Positions 44,244 to 51,499 of a DNA stretch of 51,499 bases are shown piece by piece. The notes below the pieces were generated by a model. It saw only the letters and a program-made list of their open reading frames with translations. It was not told the DNA's origin and searched no databases. Position 1 is the stretch's first letter. Every line of letters starts with the position of its first letter. A program made the position numbers and the translations under genes. Where the stretch lies: assembly GCA_030684555.1 (NCBI GenBank), contig JAUXVN010000024.1, positions 1 to 51,499 of the forward strand, given 5' to 3'. The stretch is from Ignavibacteria bacterium. GTDB lineage: Bacteria; Bacteroidota; Ignavibacteria; Ignavibacteriales; Ignavibacteriaceae.

Positions 44244-46199
44244 TTACATTGAAACTTGCGGAGGTGCCGGATCGTTCGGATTACCTGCATTCTTTACAGG
44301 AATCTGAATTAGTAACCAGGCAACAACTGCAAACACTATCATACTTATAATAAATGTTGGCTGTGCAAAGAATTCGAACAATTCTTGTTCGAAGAACGCC
44401 ACTCCGGCAAAGAGCAATCCAATCAACGCTTCCCCAGCTATTAATCCGGCAGCAATCAAGATACCATTATTTTCAACACGTGATTTTTGTGCATCATTGA
44501 ATTTTTTCTTTTCATTAACTCTTTCAACTACACCTTTAATTAATCCACCGACGAAGATAGCGAAAGTGGTTCCTAAAGGTAAATACATACCAACGCTGAC
44601 AAGCATCGGGCTTTTTACATTCATAAGGATGAAACCGACACCCATTAACATACCTGTGAATATAAGAATCCATTCCATATCACCGGCAACAATTCCTTTT
44701 GAAAGAATTGCCATCAAACTAGCTTGAGGAGCAGGAAGTGCGTTACCACCAAAACCGGTTCCTCCCATTTTGATATCACCTTCGTGCAAAATTAAAAGTG
44801 GAATAAACATAATTGCTGCTGAAACAACAACACCAATAATATCACCAAGCTGCATTTTCCAGGGAGTACCTCCGAGTATATGTCCCGCTTTAAGATCTTG
44901 TAACATTTCACCGGCTACTGCTGCAGCTACGCAAACAACTGCTGCAACTCCAAGTACCGCTGCAACTCCCGGAATTCCTTCCATACCCAATGCAACCATT
45001 AAAATTGCCGCTACAACTAATGTTGATAATGTTAAACCGCTTATTGGATTGTTACTTGATCCGATAATTCCGACAAGATAACCTGAAACTGCTGCAAAGA
45101 AAAATCCCGCAACAATCATAACGATTGTGGCAACTAAAGCTGCAACAACATTTTGAGCGAAATAATTATAGATGAAAAATGTTGCTACTGCTGAACCGAG
45201 AATACCTATCATAATCCATTTAAAACTAATATCTTGATCCGTTCTATCAGTTTTAACATCAGTACCTGATGCAGCTTTTTTTACATCACCTACTGAACGG
45301 GCAATTCCGGTTGCAAGACTTTTTCTCATTTTCCATAATGTAAAACTTGCGCCAACTAACATACCACCGATTGCGATTGGTCTAACATAATCTTTCCAAA
45401 CTTGAACCATAGTAGACGTCCAATCAATATCAGCAGGTGTATCACCGTTTACATATTTAAAGTAAGCGATAATTGGAGCTAACAAACCCCATGCAAGAAC
45501 ACCGCCGCTAAAATTTAATGCGGCAAGTTTGGGGCCGATGATATAACCAACGCCCATGTATGCAGGACTAACATCAGGTGAACGGAAAAGTAAATGTCCT
45601 TTACCAAGTGTAATTAATGATGACCATGAAGTTGCAAATAATTTAAAAGTTCCGAGAGCTTGAATGACTGCCCCAATTCCCATTGCACTAAATAAAAACT
45701 TTGAGCCTCCACCGCCATGTCTTCCTGCTTTATGAATTTCTGCGGCTGCAACTGATTCCGGAAAAGGAAGTTCAACATCCTCAACCATTACTCTTCTTAA
45801 AAGTGCAACAAACATGATTCCGAGAATACCACCCACGGTCATAATTGCCGCAGAGATCATGTAGTTGCCCGGTGTAAAGAATGGATCCCAGATACCGGCG
45901 ATAAAAAATGCCGGCAAAGTAAAAATTGCTCCGGCAGCAATTGATTCACCTATTGAACCAACGGTTCTAGTAAAGTTTTCTTCGAGTACAGTCCCTTTTA
46001 ATAATTTGATTAATGCCATCCCGATTACGGCAGCAGGATAAGTAGCGGCAATAGTCATACCGGCTTTTAAGCCAAGATATGCGTTAGCGGCACCAAGTAC
46101 TACTGCTAATACTAAGCCGATAATTAATGCGCGTACAGTGAATTCTGCCATGTTGGACTCAGGTGAGACAAAAGGAATGAACTTTTTCGATTCAGCCAT
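44244..46199 (-). CDS. oligopeptide transporter, OPT family
   Basis: The 651-residue inner-membrane protein has about 14-16 transmembrane helices. It shows typical OPT segments: ALIIGLVLAVVLGAANAYLG, LKAGMTIAATYPAAVIGMAL, a large FPESVAAAEIHKAGR cytosolic loop, GSSNNPISGLTLSTL and VAGEMLQDLKAGHILGGTPW. OPT proteins of this bacterial branch import oligopeptides, presumably with proton symport. It stands directly upstream of the PqqD-like and PepD genes, which supports a peptide import and hydrolysis pathway. Confidence 0.94.
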   Translation of the reverse strand: MAESKKFIPFVSPESNMAEFTVRALIIGLVLAVVLGAANAYLGLKAGMTIAATYPAAVIGMALIKLLKGTVLEENFTRTVGSIGESIAAGAIFTLPAFFIAGIWDPFFTPGNYMISAAIMTVGGILGIMFVALLRRVMVEDVELPFPESVAAAEIHKAGRHGGGGSKFLFSAMGIGAVIQALGTFKLFATSWSSLITLGKGHLLFRSPDVSPAYMGVGYIIGPKLAALNFSGGVLAWGLLAPIIAYFKYVNGDTPADIDWTSTMVQVWKDYVRPIAIGGMLVGASFTLWKMRKSLATGIARSVGDVKKAASGTDVKTDRTDQDISFKWIMIGILGSAVATFFIYNYFAQNVVAALVATIVMIVAGFFFAAVSGYLVGIIGSSNNPISGLTLSTLVVAAILMVALGMEGIPGVAAVLGVAAVVCVAAAVAGEMLQDLKAGHILGGTPWKMQLGDIIGVVVSAAIMFIPLLILHEGDIKMGGTGFGGNALPAPQASLMAILSKGIVAGDMEWILIFTGMLMGVGFILMNVKSPMLVSVGMYLPLGTTFAIFVGGLIKGVVERVNEKKKFNDAQKSRVENNGILIAAGLIAGEALIGLLFAGVAFFEQELFEFFAQPTFIISMIVFAVVAWLLIQIPVKNAGNPNDPAPPQVSM

Positions 46200-46485
46200 T
46201 ATATGCTCCTTTTATGCGTAGAGTTTATTTTGATAATTAATTAATTATGAATAATCGTTCAAATATAAAGAGGAATCATAAGCCATTCAACAAAATTCGA
46301 GAAATTTTTATTTACGATTTATTTGGAATGAAAAATTTTTATTTTGGTTTGATTCAACTCGATTTCGAAACCGATTTTAAAATTTCGAAGGTAAAATTTT
46401 TAAAGACGGGTTGGATTTCAATTTATTTGGTTTCGATTTTACTTTTTTGTGAAACTAAAAAAAATATTTCAAGACCATTTGAGGA
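46200..46485. other. AT-rich spacer between the OPT gene and the REC-HEPN gene
   Basis: It should hold the OPT promoter and the 3' end of the upstream signalling operon. No clear terminator hairpin or gene is visible. A plus-strand open stretch across it runs into the REC-HEPN gene and looks non-coding. Confidence 0.5.
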
Positions 46486-47583
46486 CTACAACTTCAAGAA
46501 GTCGATAAGTTTATCAAAATCTTTCTTGGCTATCCAATTAAAATTTATTGCGTGCTTGGCGTAAAAATCTCTTATGGATTGATACTTTATCTCACCTTTA
46601 TTTTCAGACATAAAAATTGCTAAGGTTAGGTTAGCGAAGAGAAGATGAATAATTTCCGGTCGAAATTCTTTATTCGGGTGGACAGACCGATTTCTATAAA
46701 TATTTAAAATATATCCAAATTTGAATTTTTCGTCTATAGTAAAGGCTGCTAATTTTCTTAAAAAGGATTGTCTGCTGGTGAACTCTCGATCGTTAGCCGG
46801 TTTTCCAAAATCCGCGACCCATTTGAAGGCTGCTTCTTTATTTGAATCCGATATTTTTACAATTTCCTCCTCAGTTTTATCTCCTGCAATAAAAACCTCT
46901 AACGATCTATGATATAGTTGTAAGATTAATCTGAAAAGAATGATATCGGCATTAAAATTCTTCCTTTTCAATAACAACATTGTAATTGTTTCGAAGTTGG
47001 ATGCTATCTCTTCTTTAATTGAGAGTTCCCTGAATGGATCACTACAAATTTTGATTTTATTCAAATTCAAATTGTTTAATATCAATTTGTGATTAAGCCA
47101 CAAATCTTTTAAAAAGGCTTGCTCATTAATTTCTGTCACTATTTTTTCAAGATTTTCATTTAACCACTTTTGACTTCCCCCTTCACCATGAGATTTATCC
47201 ATCGTTCTGACAATCAAACCGTTCTGTTTTAAATCTTCATACTTATCCCAAAGGTCTTTTGCATGAAATTGTCCCGAATGAGTTACAATTGCAGTTATCG
47301 GACAGACTTCAAATGCCCTTTCAATAAGCTCGAAACCCGAATCTCTTTTACCTCCTTTACCATCCTCTGTAAAATCAATATCAGCAAAGAATATATCAAA
47401 GTAGTTGTTATCCGTTCCCGATTCTATAATTTTTTGAAGTGCTTTAGAATAACTTTCAGCTTTAACTATTTCAATTTCATTTTTTCCACTCAAATTAGCT
47501 TGTGAATATTCTTCAATTCCTTCTACTAATATGTCTCGAGCTACTTTTGTATCCTCGGCTACTAAGATTCTAATTTTGCGCAT
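46486..47583 (-). CDS. response-regulator receiver fused to a HEPN-like domain (candidate RNase effector)
   Basis: The 365-residue protein starts with an apparently complete receiver domain (about 3-150). It has acidic E10-D11, phospho-acceptor D68 (FADIDF), T101 (IVTHSG) and K130 (MDKSH). The C-terminal part (about 180-335) is all-helical and contains NIYRNRSVHPNKEFRP, in which R297 and H302 form the RX4H motif with N298 in the polar position, as in HEPN ribonucleases. No DNA-binding output domain is present. The natural reading is a phosphorylation-controlled RNase or toxin; this is inference. It overlaps the histidine-kinase-like gene by 14 bp, so kinase and regulator are translationally coupled. 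A non-catalytic HEPN scaffold is the main alternative. Confidence 0.75.
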   Translation of the reverse strand: MRKIRILVAEDTKVARDILVEGIEEYSQANLSGKNEIEIVKAESYSKALQKIIESGTDNNYFDIFFADIDFTEDGKGGKRDSGFELIERAFEVCPITAIVTHSGQFHAKDLWDKYEDLKQNGLIVRTMDKSHGEGGSQKWLNENLEKIVTEINEQAFLKDLWLNHKLILNNLNLNKIKICSDPFRELSIKEEIASNFETITMLLLKRKNFNADIILFRLILQLYHRSLEVFIAGDKTEEEIVKISDSNKEAAFKWVADFGKPANDREFTSRQSFLRKLAAFTIDEKFKFGYILNIYRNRSVHPNKEFRPEIIHLLFANLTLAIFMSENKGEIKYQSIRDFYAKHAINFNWIAKKDFDKLIDFLKL

Positions 47584-48472
47584 AAATTATCTCTTTCGGA
47601 AAAATTATTTTAGTCAGTGTCGAGTTTGTTTCATAATTAGGGATAAAAGAAGTATTAATTTTTAGCAACTCCGTCCACATTTTAATAACTCTTAATCCGA
47701 CTTTTGAAGATTTTGAAATCCCGTCAGGTTCGTTTGTAGGTGTGCCGTTAAACCACTCCGCATAATCCTTTGAGATTGCCCTATTGTTAAAAATTGTTAC
47801 CTCAACAAATCTTTCAGTTTCTTGAAGATTAATCGAAACCACCGGTTTTTCCTCATCAGTGTTTTTCATAGCATTTCTGAGGAAGTCCTTTAATATTAAA
47901 GGGATACTCTCTTTAATCTCTTTATTAATTGAAACATTGACCGCACCTTCAATTGAAATAGCTAAATCAAGCTTTGCCAACAATTCTTCATGGTCATCAC
48001 CGGATATTCTTAATGTTGTAATACCTGATTTAATCGTTTCCAATTGTTCGGAAATAATTTCATTTAAGTTTAGAATTACCATTTCATTAGAAAGAGGGAG
48101 ATTATTGCGCTTGATATACCACATTAATAGATTTGTAAGTTCACGGATTTGACGAATATGAAAATATGCTTTTTCTACTCGCGGGATATCTCTATGTTTT
48201 TCCAGATTTGAAACTGCAACATAAACATCCGTATTAATTGAGTGAGCCATTTCATCAATTATTTTTTGCCATGTTGAAGCTTCGGCTTTGAATTCTTGCT
48301 CGCGAAGTAAAAATTTTTGTTTTTGCTCATAACTTAGAAGGGCTTCTCTCACTAAACTGTTATACTGTTTTTCTTTTTCTCTTTCATAGGTACGAAGATC
48401 ATCGTACTTTTTTAATAATTCCTTGTAAGCAACCTGAAGTTTTTCTAAGGAGTTAAAATCACTTTGGTTCAT
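47570..48472 (-). CDS. soluble histidine-kinase-like ATPase with N-terminal coiled coil
   Basis: The 300-residue protein has no membrane segment. A coiled coil covers about 8-65. It is followed by a HisKA-like helix with H77 (IIDEMAHSINTD), a dimerisation-like helical stretch and a HATPase-like domain. The N-box is FLRNAMKNT (N200, N204) and the G2-like loop is KSSKVGLRVIKMW (G259). The usual DxG of the G1 box is replaced by IFNN (227-230), so ATP binding may be altered. It overlaps the neighbouring genes by 14 bp on both sides and most likely phosphorylates the REC-HEPN protein. A degenerate, regulatory ATPase is also possible. Confidence 0.75.
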   Translation of the reverse strand: MNQSDFNSLEKLQVAYKELLKKYDDLRTYEREKEKQYNSLVREALLSYEQKQKFLLREQEFKAEASTWQKIIDEMAHSINTDVYVAVSNLEKHRDIPRVEKAYFHIRQIRELTNLLMWYIKRNNLPLSNEMVILNLNEIISEQLETIKSGITTLRISGDDHEELLAKLDLAISIEGAVNVSINKEIKESIPLILKDFLRNAMKNTDEEKPVVSINLQETERFVEVTIFNNRAISKDYAEWFNGTPTNEPDGISKSSKVGLRVIKMWTELLKINTSFIPNYETNSTLTKIIFPKEIIYAQN

Positions 48473-49994
48473 CTATATTTTTCTTCCCTTCTAAGTATGC
48501 ATTTAGTTTATCTTCAAGGGTAATTCTAAATAAATTTCCAGGGTTCCCTTCTAAATTTAGGAGAGGTGAAAGATCTTTAATGATTCTTCGTTCTAAATAA
48601 ATTAACCCACTATCAGTTGGTTCAAAATATTCTTCATAAAAAGAAATTTTTATGTTCTCTTCAACCCACACTTCTAAATTTTTTTCACCGATTATCGCAG
48701 AAAGTGTTAAAAGAAATTCCGAGTCATCTATTTTATTAAAATCAAAAAGTTTCTTGAAGTCAGTGTAGAGTGAATAAGTTCTAGTAATGAAAATAATATT
48801 TCTGAGCTTCACATATTCACTTGCCTCTGTTAATCGGAAATTTGGTCCCGTGTAAGCTAAACTAAGGATTCCACTACTTCCTAACCTATGTGATTGCACA
48901 AAGTCTTGGAATTTTAAAAACTCAAGAGAATTACTTTGAAGTATTTTTTTTATCCGAACCAAATCATTTTTAACAATAACTTTTCCTCCTTCTTTATCGA
49001 AGGAATATATATCCGACCTAATTTCTAACTGCGAGATTACATATTCCATTGAAATAGGTTTAGTTATATCGAGTTCGAGAGGAGATCGGTTTATTCGAAA
49101 ATCTAAATTTTTAAGATCGAGAGACTCTCGTTTACTTTTACGAAAATTGTATAAAATTGAATATTCAAATCTTGAGTATTGCGGGTAGAAAATTTGGGTT
49201 CCCCATTTATTTAACCCAACCAAATCATTATAGTTAGATTTTTGTGGAGACACAATTTTATAAAACAAATGATTGTTCTGACTGATTATACTTTGAATTT
49301 TGTCATAAGGTTCAAATAAATGAAACCCGATATTACCATAGAACCCATCAAACCCAGGTTTCTCAAAATTGAAATAGTTGCAGAAACTTTTTTCTAACTG
49401 CTCAATAATATCTTCAATGGATATAGGTCGATTTTCATCATCAAGAATAATTCCTATTTCGCTTTTATAAAATTCATTTACAGCCAAATCATTCATATAA
49501 TATCTAGATTCATACGTTACTGACTCTTCTGGACTATAACTAAATAAAGTACCCACCAAATGATCTTTTAATAATCTTCGAATTTTGTCATGAGGATCAA
49601 ATAAATGAAACCCGCTATTACCATAAAACTCATCAAACCCCGGTTTCTTAAAATTGAAATAGTTGCAGAAACTTTTTTCTAACTGCTCAGTAATATCTTC
49701 AACTGATATAGGTCGATTTTCATCATCAAGAATAATTCCTAATTCGCTTTTATAAAATTCATTTACAGCCAAATCATCCATATAATATCTAGATTCATAC
49801 GTTACTGGGTCTTCTGGACTATAACTAAATAAAGTACCCACCAAATGATCTTTTAATAATCTTTGCACTACCTCGCTCGAAATATTGAACTGCTTTTGTA
49901 ATCCCAATTCTTCAATGGGCAATTTTTCTAAACTCAAAAAATTTAAAAGTTTGTCAAGCATTCCATTGTCTTTTATTTCGTTTGGTGTATTCAT
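48459..49994 (-). CDS. unknown 511-aa protein with a recent 95-residue tandem duplication
   Basis: The family is not recognised. A short helical N-terminus (1-44) is followed by two nearly identical 95-residue units (45-139 and 140-234), each containing LLKDHLVGTLFSYSPE, YYMxDLAVNEFYKSE, DDENRPIS and FCNYFNF. A diverged third relative may lie around 290-340 (KPISMEYVISQLE). The remainder (about 340-511) is unassigned. There is no signal peptide or membrane helix. The position between the CARF gene and the kinase-like gene, with a 14-bp overlap into the latter, suggests a sensing or adaptor role. The recent duplication is unusual for a housekeeping protein. Confidence 0.75.
   Translation of the reverse strand: MNTPNEIKDNGMLDKLLNFLSLEKLPIEELGLQKQFNISSEVVQRLLKDHLVGTLFSYSPEDPVTYESRYYMDDLAVNEFYKSELGIILDDENRPISVEDITEQLEKSFCNYFNFKKPGFDEFYGNSGFHLFDPHDKIRRLLKDHLVGTLFSYSPEESVTYESRYYMNDLAVNEFYKSEIGIILDDENRPISIEDIIEQLEKSFCNYFNFEKPGFDGFYGNIGFHLFEPYDKIQSIISQNNHLFYKIVSPQKSNYNDLVGLNKWGTQIFYPQYSRFEYSILYNFRKSKRESLDLKNLDFRINRSPLELDITKPISMEYVISQLEIRSDIYSFDKEGGKVIVKNDLVRIKKILQSNSLEFLKFQDFVQSHRLGSSGILSLAYTGPNFRLTEASEYVKLRNIIFITRTYSLYTDFKKLFDFNKIDDSEFLLTLSAIIGEKNLEVWVEENIKISFYEEYFEPTDSGLIYLERRIIKDLSPLLNLEGNPGNLFRITLEDKLNAYLEGKKNIDEPK
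49293..49862 (-). repeat. tandem duplication, two 285-bp copies
   Basis: Copies lie at 49578-49862 and 49293-49577. By eye they differ at 14 of 285 positions, of which 11 change the amino acid. The high identity marks a recent in-frame duplication. Confidence 0.9.
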
Positions 49995-50071
49995 TTTGTT
50001 CGTTTCTGTTCTTTTATTATTTGTTAATAATTACAACACAAATATATGTAAATCTTCAACCCGATATAATT

Positions 50072-50085
50072 CCGCAACGTTGCGG
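50072..50085. promoter_or_regulatory. 14-bp perfect palindrome between the CARF gene and the downstream operon genes
   Basis: CCGCAACGTTGCGG reads the same on both strands. It is GC-rich in an AT-rich spacer, 8 bases past the CARF stop and about 80 bases before the next start. On the minus strand a TATATTTG that fits the Bacteroidota -7 element lies about 25 bases downstream, but no matching -33 element was found. It could be an operator. Confidence 0.45.
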
Positions 50086-50093
50086 CAACGGTT

Positions 50094-51074
50094 TTATTCG
50101 ATTATGATTTTTTCAGCAGGAATATTTAGCCCATATAGCTTTGCGTGGCGTTTTCCGGTTATCGATATTTCAAATAATTTTGAGATTGCATCACTAGCTA
50201 AAGTTTGCCTAAATTTTTTATTAGTTTTAGATATGTTCCCTCTAACAGTTGTTAAAGAGAGAGGAAAATTCTTTTTAATCATACTCTCTAGTTCAACCCG
50301 AAATAAATCCGATTCAGGAAAACTTTTTTTGTGGTAATAAATTATCTTTTCTAGAAATTCTTTTGGTGCAGATAATCCCGATAATCTAATTGGAGAAGAA
50401 CTTTTAATTAATAAATCACAAAAATAACGATAGTAAGAAAACTCAATCGGTGAGAGTGGAATTATCACATTACCGATTGAGACAGTTCCTTTGCTCAGAT
50501 TCAGATTAAGTGTCGGTATTAATGCTTCTTTTTCTTGTTTTAGTAAATTAATCTCATTTTCCATACTAATAATTTTGGGGAGTGCAGTCGCAAGTTTAAC
50601 TTCCTTTGTATAAGGTTTTCCGAATTTCGGTTCTCTAACTCTAATTAATTTTAGTGGATACTCTTTAGAAAACTCTCCTGATTCAGAAAGCAATATCCAA
50701 CAGACTTGCATTGATGGAGTTCCGGAAGAAATTGCAGCGGTATATTTATGATTATCATCCTTTTGAAGTTGGTCGCAAAAAATCTTCAAAGGACTATAAA
50801 TCTCATTGTGATCAGTAACATCAGTAATTAAAAGTTTAACAGTCTCGACCTTGCGGGCTAAATTTCTATTAAGGATTTCGGATTTAAGATAGTCAGCAAT
50901 CTGGCTAAAACTAATATCTTTTGAATTCGACTCATTCCAGAGCAGATAACAGATATCCGCTTTAACTTCTTTCAGAGCAGTTAAAATGGCTCCTTCGGAA
51001 TTCCCTTTAAGTTTACCGGCATCGTTCACACCGACAAAAGAAAGAAGTATGTTTATTTGTTTTTGTTTTCCCAT
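50094..51074 (-). CDS. RtcR-like CARF-domain protein with C-terminal winged-helix-like region
   Basis: The 326-residue protein begins with a Rossmann-like CARF domain (about 6-165). INILLSFVGVNDAG forms the first strand and loop, CYLLWNES the second strand, and AAISSGTPSMQVCWILL (113-129) the SGT motif shared with the sensor part of RtcR, the regulator of RNA repair genes. A short coiled linker (170-185) leads to a basic C-terminal region (about 195-326) with LSPIEFSYYRYF and VRGNISKTNKKFRQ...KRHAKLYGLNIP. That region resembles the winged C-terminus of some CRISPR-associated CARF-related proteins. There is no AAA+ domain, unlike RtcR. It probably senses an RNA-derived nucleotide ligand and heads the four-gene unit. 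No CRISPR array or cas gene is in view. Confidence 0.72.
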   Translation of the reverse strand: MGKQKQINILLSFVGVNDAGKLKGNSEGAILTALKEVKADICYLLWNESNSKDISFSQIADYLKSEILNRNLARKVETVKLLITDVTDHNEIYSPLKIFCDQLQKDDNHKYTAAISSGTPSMQVCWILLSESGEFSKEYPLKLIRVREPKFGKPYTKEVKLATALPKIISMENEINLLKQEKEALIPTLNLNLSKGTVSIGNVIIPLSPIEFSYYRYFCDLLIKSSSPIRLSGLSAPKEFLEKIIYYHKKSFPESDLFRVELESMIKKNFPLSLTTVRGNISKTNKKFRQTLASDAISKLFEISITGKRHAKLYGLNIPAEKIIIE

Positions 51075-51086
51075 TGGATAAAAATA

Positions 51087-51103
51087 TTATAATTCGGTTA
51101 TAA
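51087..51103. promoter_or_regulatory. TTATAA-N5-TTATAA dyad just upstream of the CARF gene
   Basis: Two TTATAA palindromes separated by TTCGG lie 12-29 bases before the ATG at 51074. The position suits an operator or an AT-rich promoter; the sequence is simple, so confidence is low. Confidence 0.3.
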
Positions 51104-51499
51104 CATAATAAAGAATTTGCAGATTTTTCATTATAATAGACTTTATTCCGGTCTTAAAACACAATTCTCTTATCATTCTTCAGTTACTTCAATCCAATAT
51201 ATTCTTTGCTGAGTTTTCCTTGCCCAAACAAGATAACCTGTCTGGATTTCTTTTGGTTGAAGGAACTAAATATTTGGCTGTTTCCAAACAATTAACTCTA
51301 TGGTTCTCCTCAATTCCAAAGAACAGTAGATTAAACTAACTTCATCAGAATTATATAACCTCAAATCCGATATAGAAGCAGATGTAGCGAGGAAAATTAG
51401 CAAAAAGTGGCTCGACCTTGAAAAAATTATTCGGGCTATAGTTCTTATACTTGTTTTCATTATTTTCCGGCAATCTCTGACCTTATTTAGTGGGATTTG
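51104..51499. other. region upstream of the CARF gene with a possible broken gene
   Basis: No intact gene is visible. On the minus strand one frame runs from the right edge to a TAG at about 51265 and continues in the same frame as PKEIQTGYLVWARKTQQRIY, then WIEVTEE, to a stop near 51175. The second part looks protein-like. This may be the decayed 3' end of a gene lying outside the window, or chance. Confidence 0.3.

Follow-up and report, generated by a model that had tools for sequence, protein, structure and literature searches.

RtcR, which consists of a CARF domain, a sigma-54 AAA+ domain and an HTH, binds tRNA fragments with cyclic phosphate ends through its CARF domain (PMC7790460); oligoadenylates are not its signal, and both RtcA and RtcB are needed (PMC9650030; this and the other papers cited by accession are drawn on in excerpt). 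CARF-AAA-HTH regulators were linked to restriction-modification (R-M) systems in 2014 (PMC4012209), and in 2024 RtcR-like CARF genes were described at the head of R-M and CoCoNuT superoperons (PMC11090510). In CoCoNuT regions a type I R-M system almost always lies directly after the CARF gene (PMC4012209, PMC11090510); in the excerpts of these two papers, control by the RtcR/PspF-like regulators is predicted and an operator is not given. A second group of CARF regulators, the Csa3/NE0113-type CARF-wHTH factors, includes Csa3, which regulates CRISPR and DNA repair genes (PMC8844856). Outside the CARF superfamily, BrxR, a WYL regulator with two sites in one defence island, and RptR are both repressors, and the excerpts of the corresponding reports describe the quieting and induction of defence genes as poorly known (PMC9122601, PMC12255303).

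The DNA analyzed here (the window, 51,499 nucleotides of an Ignavibacteria contig) carries at 50094..51074, on the reverse strand, a gene that runs from ATG to stop and encodes a 326-residue protein, P0001, which is a member of the CARF superfamily by profile match and fold. An RtcR-type CARF domain occupies about residues 1-162 (50589..51074, reverse strand). Residues 56-146 match Pfam RtcR (E 2.7e-7, 30.7 bits, cut-off 23.1), residues 8-151 match the PADLOC profile RtcR_PspF2 (E 1.6e-16), and in an AlphaFold2 model of the protein (mean pLDDT 88, pTM 0.53) residues 6-169 superpose on the CARF domain of Csm6 (Z 17.7, rmsd 2.5, 154 aligned residues). The motif SGTPxM is invariant in an alignment of 27 CARF rows. 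The sequence-only reading, which had assigned the SGTPSMQVCW segment and the VGVNDAG start to the sensor part of RtcR and had proposed a CARF profile search, agrees with all of these results.

In the model, a long helix (residues 164-185) leads into a compact domain (about 189-326) at the place where RtcR has its AAA+ domain. This predicted DNA-binding, winged-helix-like domain (about residues 186-326; 50094..50519, reverse strand) is also delimited by a match of residues 173-325 to the C-terminus of PADLOC 'CARF5' (E 1.1e-8) and by hhalign comparisons: six NE0113-type CARF proteins, one of which (L072) was checked against Pfam and belongs to PF09623, align over positions 8-322 of the P0001 family profile (99.0%), most evenly in the C-terminal part, and single-sequence matches to proteins of this type fall on the C-terminal part of P0001 as well. 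CARF-sigma54 proteins align to profile positions 10-178 (99.5%). Because profile comparison splits the protein in two in this manner, P0001 can be described as an RtcR-type sensor joined to an NE0113-type output domain. A Pfam search of P0001 returned no AAA+/Sigma54_activat, wHTH or WYL match, no effector domain was matched in Pfam, PADLOC or NCBIfam, and the score against NCBIfam RtcR was 23.1 bits at a cut-off of 650, so the three-part RtcR architecture is not that of P0001. The earlier proposal that a winged-helix-like region replaces the AAA+ domain held for the loss of AAA+, and the replacement is a domain related to NE0113-type proteins. A PDB sequence search gave one BamHI row (E 0.027), which we judged to be chance, and the profile search gave none. 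A 286-residue protein from the island of locus L044 (L044:18243-19103) carries the C-terminal domain of the family and lacks the CARF part.

In the searches made, nearly all members of the family came from Ignavibacteria-type genomes. Of 391 genomes belonging to the class, a P0001 match at E <= 0.001 was obtained in 50, and a strong one (E below 1e-30) in 30 of these; 24 of the 30 form a main clade (42-59% identity over the aligned part) and six a distant clade, f16 (35-37%). A scan of one genome per species (84,980 species), using two short conserved peptides and tblastn, yielded 35 loci, namely 33 family members and two Kiritimatiellae loci with the CARF part only; 31 of the 33 bear titles of Ignavibacteria or of wider Bacteroidetes, Chlorobiota, Melioribacter and Kapaibacterium MAGs. 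The other two (L079 and L090) are both carried by MAG_CA253, whose title, Clostridium sp., is probably due to misnaming or misbinning. Across 262 genomes sampled from the phylum, only members of the class had full-length relatives, with two partial CARF matches outside it; the viral contigs searched held no relative, and the plasmids searched held none of the CARF protein or of the receiver protein described below. For comparison we assembled 41 distinct loci, nearly all from draft or metagenome-assembled genomes with mechanically called ORFs; 37 of them keep the CARF 3' end, including 30 of the main clade. Operator counts omit L054, L060, L062 and L064, in which the contig end cuts the CARF gene, and the CARF tree omits these together with L066 and L102. 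The latter has a frameshifted CARF gene, with its site 288 nt past the broken frame, and is counted among the 30 main-clade loci. Because some loci are closely related (L042/L079, L048/L051), the counts below overstate independence.

Directly 3' of the CARF stop codon, the family loci share a palindromic operator with the consensus TTGCnGCAACRTTGC. In the window this site, TTGCCGCAACGTTGCGG, lies at 50072..50088 on the reverse strand, 5 nt past the stop codon, and contains a perfect 14-bp palindrome (50072-50085). The palindrome as a lone feature, with a 12-bp core unique in the genome, was set aside when alignment of the homologous gaps revealed the wider motif. A predicted -7 promoter box of the downstream cassette, TATATTTG, follows at 50039..50046 on the same strand, 42 nt from the operator start, with a predicted transcription start near 50034. 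With the Bacteroidota -7 consensus TANNTTTG and the numbering of PMC6847099, the operator centre falls near -44.5. An Rfam search of 46000-51499 gave no match.

To score the operator we used the pattern TTGCNGCAACRTTGCNG (maximum 15). A site of at least 12/15 occurs within the first 110 nt behind the CARF gene in 21 of 37 loci, whereas 200 shuffles averaged 0.15 and never exceeded 1; upstream of the CARF gene the count is 0/37, and at other ORF ends it is 11/419, eight of which are further operator-box sites. The consensus was derived from loci that were later scored; spacing and the class-wide scan described below are the less circular tests. For the spacing test, 28 intergenic CARF-strand sites were taken by operator only (score 13 or more). 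TAnnTTTG matched at five or more of its six positions exactly +42 from the operator start at 21 of these 28 sites, and at any other offset between 18 and 79 at no more than 2 sites; exact boxes number 14 at +42, one at +43 and one at +65. A scan of 584,827 bases placed an intergenic CARF-strand operator with a box of at least 5/6 in 24 of the 30 main-clade loci (28 sites), besides two readings that come from the opposite strand of two of these palindromes and two that fall inside genes. The combination is missing from six main-clade loci, of which L132, L091, L094 and L056 are at contig ends, L087 has a box of 4/6 and L058 has none. The f16 clade (7 loci) has degenerate operator sites only, none with a TAnnTTTG box; in five of the seven (among L065-L070) a form close to TTTCCrCAwCGTTkCC was seen 7-16 nt past the stop codon. 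Six NE0113-type loci contain no operator at 13/15 or better, and a shared C-terminal domain does not, therefore, imply a shared site.

Across the 391 genomes, the exact operator-box pattern occurs in nine, once in each, and all nine are among the 24 main-clade genomes (P 2.4e-12); a reversed-pattern control found no match. Five of the nine sites adjoin the CARF gene and are the sites on which the pattern was modelled, while the other four (G218, G311, G079 and G176) lie 2.7-9.8 kb from it and by themselves give P 1.1e-5. Inner operators also stand before a second kinase-receiver cassette (L048), before HsdR behind YhcG (L049), before ARPP-1 (L055, L061), before AAA15-type genes (L039, L047) and before small genes (L044, L057); in L090 an operator precedes a GIY-YIG-HATPase module 4.4 kb upstream of the CARF gene. 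In L134, an operator with a perfect -7 box occurs 1397 nt after the CARF gene with no clear gene behind it, and a short stretch containing an inverted repeat follows. The window genome itself has one convincing operator site only.

The genes behind the operator are exchangeable. The next ORF is co-directional with the CARF gene in 35 of 37 loci, and in 27 of the 30 main-clade loci with a CARF 3' end, recognized modules of nine kinds, assigned by BLAST to representatives, follow or flank it: type I R-M (6/30), a cassette of gene X, kinase and receiver (5/30, with L051 ending before the receiver), AAA15 ATPase (4/30), YhcG nuclease (3/30), ARPP-1 (3/30), GIY-YIG-HATPase with receiver (2/30), reverse transcriptase (2/30), PRTase-CE with an upstream GIY-YIG-HATPase module (1/30) and a SIR2-like gene five genes on (1/30). 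Three of the 30 were unrecognized. The representatives are backed by Pfam or PADLOC matches save for parts read by eye, which are the GIY-YIG portion of the HATPase fusions and the small receivers that accompany them, as well as the window kinase and receiver. On a tree of 35 CARF proteins (16 of 32 inner branches well supported), the 26 labelled rows require at least 13 module changes, where nine states need at least 8; the count of 13 omits L056, L058, L094 and the f16 rows, and with the f16 rows it is 15. Judged from their sequences the neighbouring modules are mostly of anti-virus type, and the recurrence of one operator before such unrelated gene sets suggests that a single sensor activates whichever putative defence genes follow it. 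In the f16 clade the next genes are not recognized defence genes; in L066-L070 the CARF gene is followed by one for a 600-residue protein that by eye appears secreted and von Willebrand-like.

In the window the module is a three-gene cassette on the reverse strand. Gene 1 (X, 48459..49994, 511 residues) has a GIY-YIG_2-like C-terminus (Pfam GIY_YIG_2, 23.2 bits, cut-off 22.4); the match is above cut-off in the window, L052 and L172 and below it in L045, L048 and L171. Within X, 49291-49860 is an in-frame tandem duplication of 285 nt, probably recent since its two copies are 95% identical. Gene 2 (47570..48472, 300 residues) encodes a histidine-kinase-like protein recognized by alignment: the window copy has no Pfam match, its relative L171:7678-8580 matches HATPase_c above cut-off, and the H-box histidine and the N-box are present in all six copies checked. 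The kinase ORF of L051, at a contig end, closes with a peptide that resembles Illumina adapter sequence, and its last residues are probably not real because of this apparent read-through. Gene 3 (46486..47583, 365 residues) encodes a putative receiver followed by a helical domain with an RNxxxH (HEPN-type) motif. It has no Pfam match; receiver structures lead its fold search weakly (E 0.011, none at E <= 0.001), and the model has a pLDDT of 71, falling below 50 at 290-307 where RNxxxH lies. RNxxxH and a DIDF/DLDF motif are nevertheless present in 8 of 8 copies checked, and RNxxxH suggests that the protein is a HEPN RNase. Strong relatives of it occur in 7 of the 391 genomes, plus two weak partial ones, and five of the seven also have the CARF-wHTH protein. 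Detocs-like two-component defence systems likewise consist of a kinase and a receiver-effector protein; the window cassette differs from them by its GIY-YIG-like partner and HEPN-type motif, and no match named Detocs was among those reported by PADLOC 2.0.0, a version that may not include that system. Upstream of the CARF gene, the contig breaks after 425 bp inside a multi-copy IS-like element (end at 51359..51499, unstranded; transposase-like ORF judged by eye), so that side is out of sight. The repeat at 51359-51499 recurs at 11 other places in the genome, mostly contig ends, and beside one copy (L138) lies a 423-residue ORF (982-2253) that by eye is transposase-like.

The same cassette also occurs with another regulator. 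In G215 and G364 (L171, L172), the X-kinase-receiver cassette lies divergently to a gene for a CARF protein of 488 or 492 residues that carries a Sigma54_activat domain (Pfam E about 1e-66), and the gap between them contains a sigma-54 site pointing at the cassette (12/12 and 11/12), the best in each 15-16 kb locus. Two CARF regulators that differ in their output domain are thus found with one cassette, although both genomes belong to one genus (g7) and the arrangement perhaps reflects one event. A further copy of the cassette (L173) has no CARF gene on the 12 kb examined, where the contig ends at the kinase. Sigma-54 regulators activate transcription, and this speaks for activation by the wHTH version as well.

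From the computed architecture, family, operator, spacing, co-occurrence and module exchange, we infer DNA binding by P0001 and activation in preference to repression, and we give a probability of roughly 0.75 to the reading that P0001 activates transcription of a swappable defence locus in a ligand-gated manner. The CARF domain would bind a signal of infection or damage, the C-terminal domain would occupy the operator, centred near -44.5 relative to the promoter that immediately follows the CARF gene, and bound P0001 would help RNA polymerase at the TAnnTTTG promoter. Any module behind the operator would then be switched on, and additional operators would bring more of the island's modules under the same control; for the window, the products would be the GIY-YIG-like protein, the histidine kinase and the HEPN-motif receiver, perhaps an RNase acting in infected cells. 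The 'different output' foreseen for this sensor is supported, most likely in the form of direct control over transcription of the following module. The same operator and targets could instead serve a repressor released by its ligand, as with BrxR in a defence island, and a palindromic site fits either mode; BrxR and RptR, the defence-island regulators cited above, both repress (PMC9122601, PMC12255303). The position of the site centre and its fixed spacing to the -7 box fit an activator better, however, as does the activating nature of the sigma-54 regulators of the same cassette. The lack of a TTG near -33 in 30 of 30 aligned sites (25 loci; selected with a mild box criterion of 4 of 6, which biases box counts upward) points the same way, but it is poor evidence because F. 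johnsoniae has a weak -33 box in any case (PMC6847099). We consider repression rather improbable. Since CARF gene and site stay constant while the modules differ, the palindrome might also be imagined as a recombination or insertion site for module exchange, rather than an operator; the 42-nt spacing to a promoter box, the CARF-strand orientation, the position before genes and the extra copies preceding inner modules make this very hard to credit.

The signal that would gate P0001 as an activator was considered in relation to RNA repair and CRISPR genes. The sequence-only reading had seen neither RtcA/RtcB nor cas genes nor a CRISPR locus nearby, and had named 2',3'-cyclic phosphate RNA ends or cyclic oligonucleotides as candidate ligands. 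Neither RtcB nor RtcA was found in the window genome (99.97% complete), so the rtcBA linkage of RtcR is absent and a plain copy of RtcR signalling is disfavoured. The observation on CRISPR also stood, with six window proteins annotated: no CRISPR-like repeat family was detected in the window at the settings used, and the one Cas10 match of the genome lies on another contig in a Cmr-type locus. That locus (L137, C75) appears to be of type III, with Cas10, an RT-Cas1-like protein, repeats and a CorA-like membrane protein of 848 residues with a DHH-like N-terminus, all but Cas10 recognized by eye. CorA-like proteins go with SAM-AMP, and this locus may be a SAM-AMP system. One of the 24 main-clade genomes, G171, has Cas10 on the contig that carries the CARF gene, many contigs being short; anywhere in the genome, Cas10 was matched in 9 of 24, compared with 58 of 367 other genomes (Fisher P 0.011), counts in which some matches may be false because the Cas10 profile also matched an E. 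coli control; with the f16 genomes added the figure is 9/30 (P 0.073). Locus L055 adjoins cmr genes, and among ten genomes picked for NE0113-type C-terminal matches, eight have Cas10. The family is best read, as judged by Cas10, as lying mostly away from type III CRISPR.

A remote type III accessory, reading cyclic oligoadenylate made by a Cas10 elsewhere in the genome, would be compatible with activation. The Cas10 match of P0001's own genome, the over-representation in the main clade and L055 speak for it and keep cyclic oligoadenylate possible, yet Cas10 was not matched in 15 of the 24 main-clade genomes, same-contig linkage is rare, and the Cas10 locus of this genome has a CorA-like protein, a kind that goes with SAM-AMP. 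The RtcR precedent, in which oligoadenylates are not the signal, also counts against it (PMC9650030), and we regard this source of the signal as unlikely. RtcR-type domains mostly lack a positive residue after strand 4 (PMC4012209), and in our reading the family sequence SSGTPxMQVCWIL agrees with this. We lean, loosely, towards RNA ends as the ligand of P0001. A fuller and more tentative proposal, which we rate as possible but well short of even odds, is a CRISPR-independent alarm: the CARF domain would read 2',3'-cyclic phosphate RNA ends made during infection and switch on an exchangeable arsenal through the shared operator, and cuts by HEPN RNases of that arsenal, perhaps including that of the window, would add to the signal, so that the switch would sustain itself. 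Both the cyclic-phosphate idea and HEPN feedback were already proposed in 2024 (PMC11090510).

P0001 therefore shares an RtcR-type CARF domain and an association with R-M systems with RtcR and the RtcR/PspF-like CARF-AAA-HTH regulators, and differs from them in having no AAA+ domain and in using its own operator and a TAnnTTTG promoter. It resembles Csa3 and NE0113-type factors in joining a CARF domain to a C-terminal domain without an effector, one related to that of NE0113, but its CARF domain is RtcR-type and it is seldom on a contig with Cas10. With BrxR and RptR, as excerpted above, it has in common one regulator family beside many defence systems and repeated operators; their sensor and DNA-binding parts are different, and they repress. 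As far as our literature searches show, the following are apparently new: an AAA-free RtcR-type CARF family beside mostly non-CRISPR modules (the 2020 CARF classification may list such a family), a shared operator with fixed promoter spacing and several copies per island, and the GIY-YIG-kinase-receiver cassette. Because the same sensor, operator and promoter layout recur ahead of many unrelated modules, a single reporter could test for induction by a CARF ligand. The operator can also serve as a marker of candidate defence modules, among them the two-component cassette with its HEPN-type receiver and the ARPP-1 genes, and, under the alarm proposal, since any module landing behind it would become inducible, it may be a place where new defence genes can dock.
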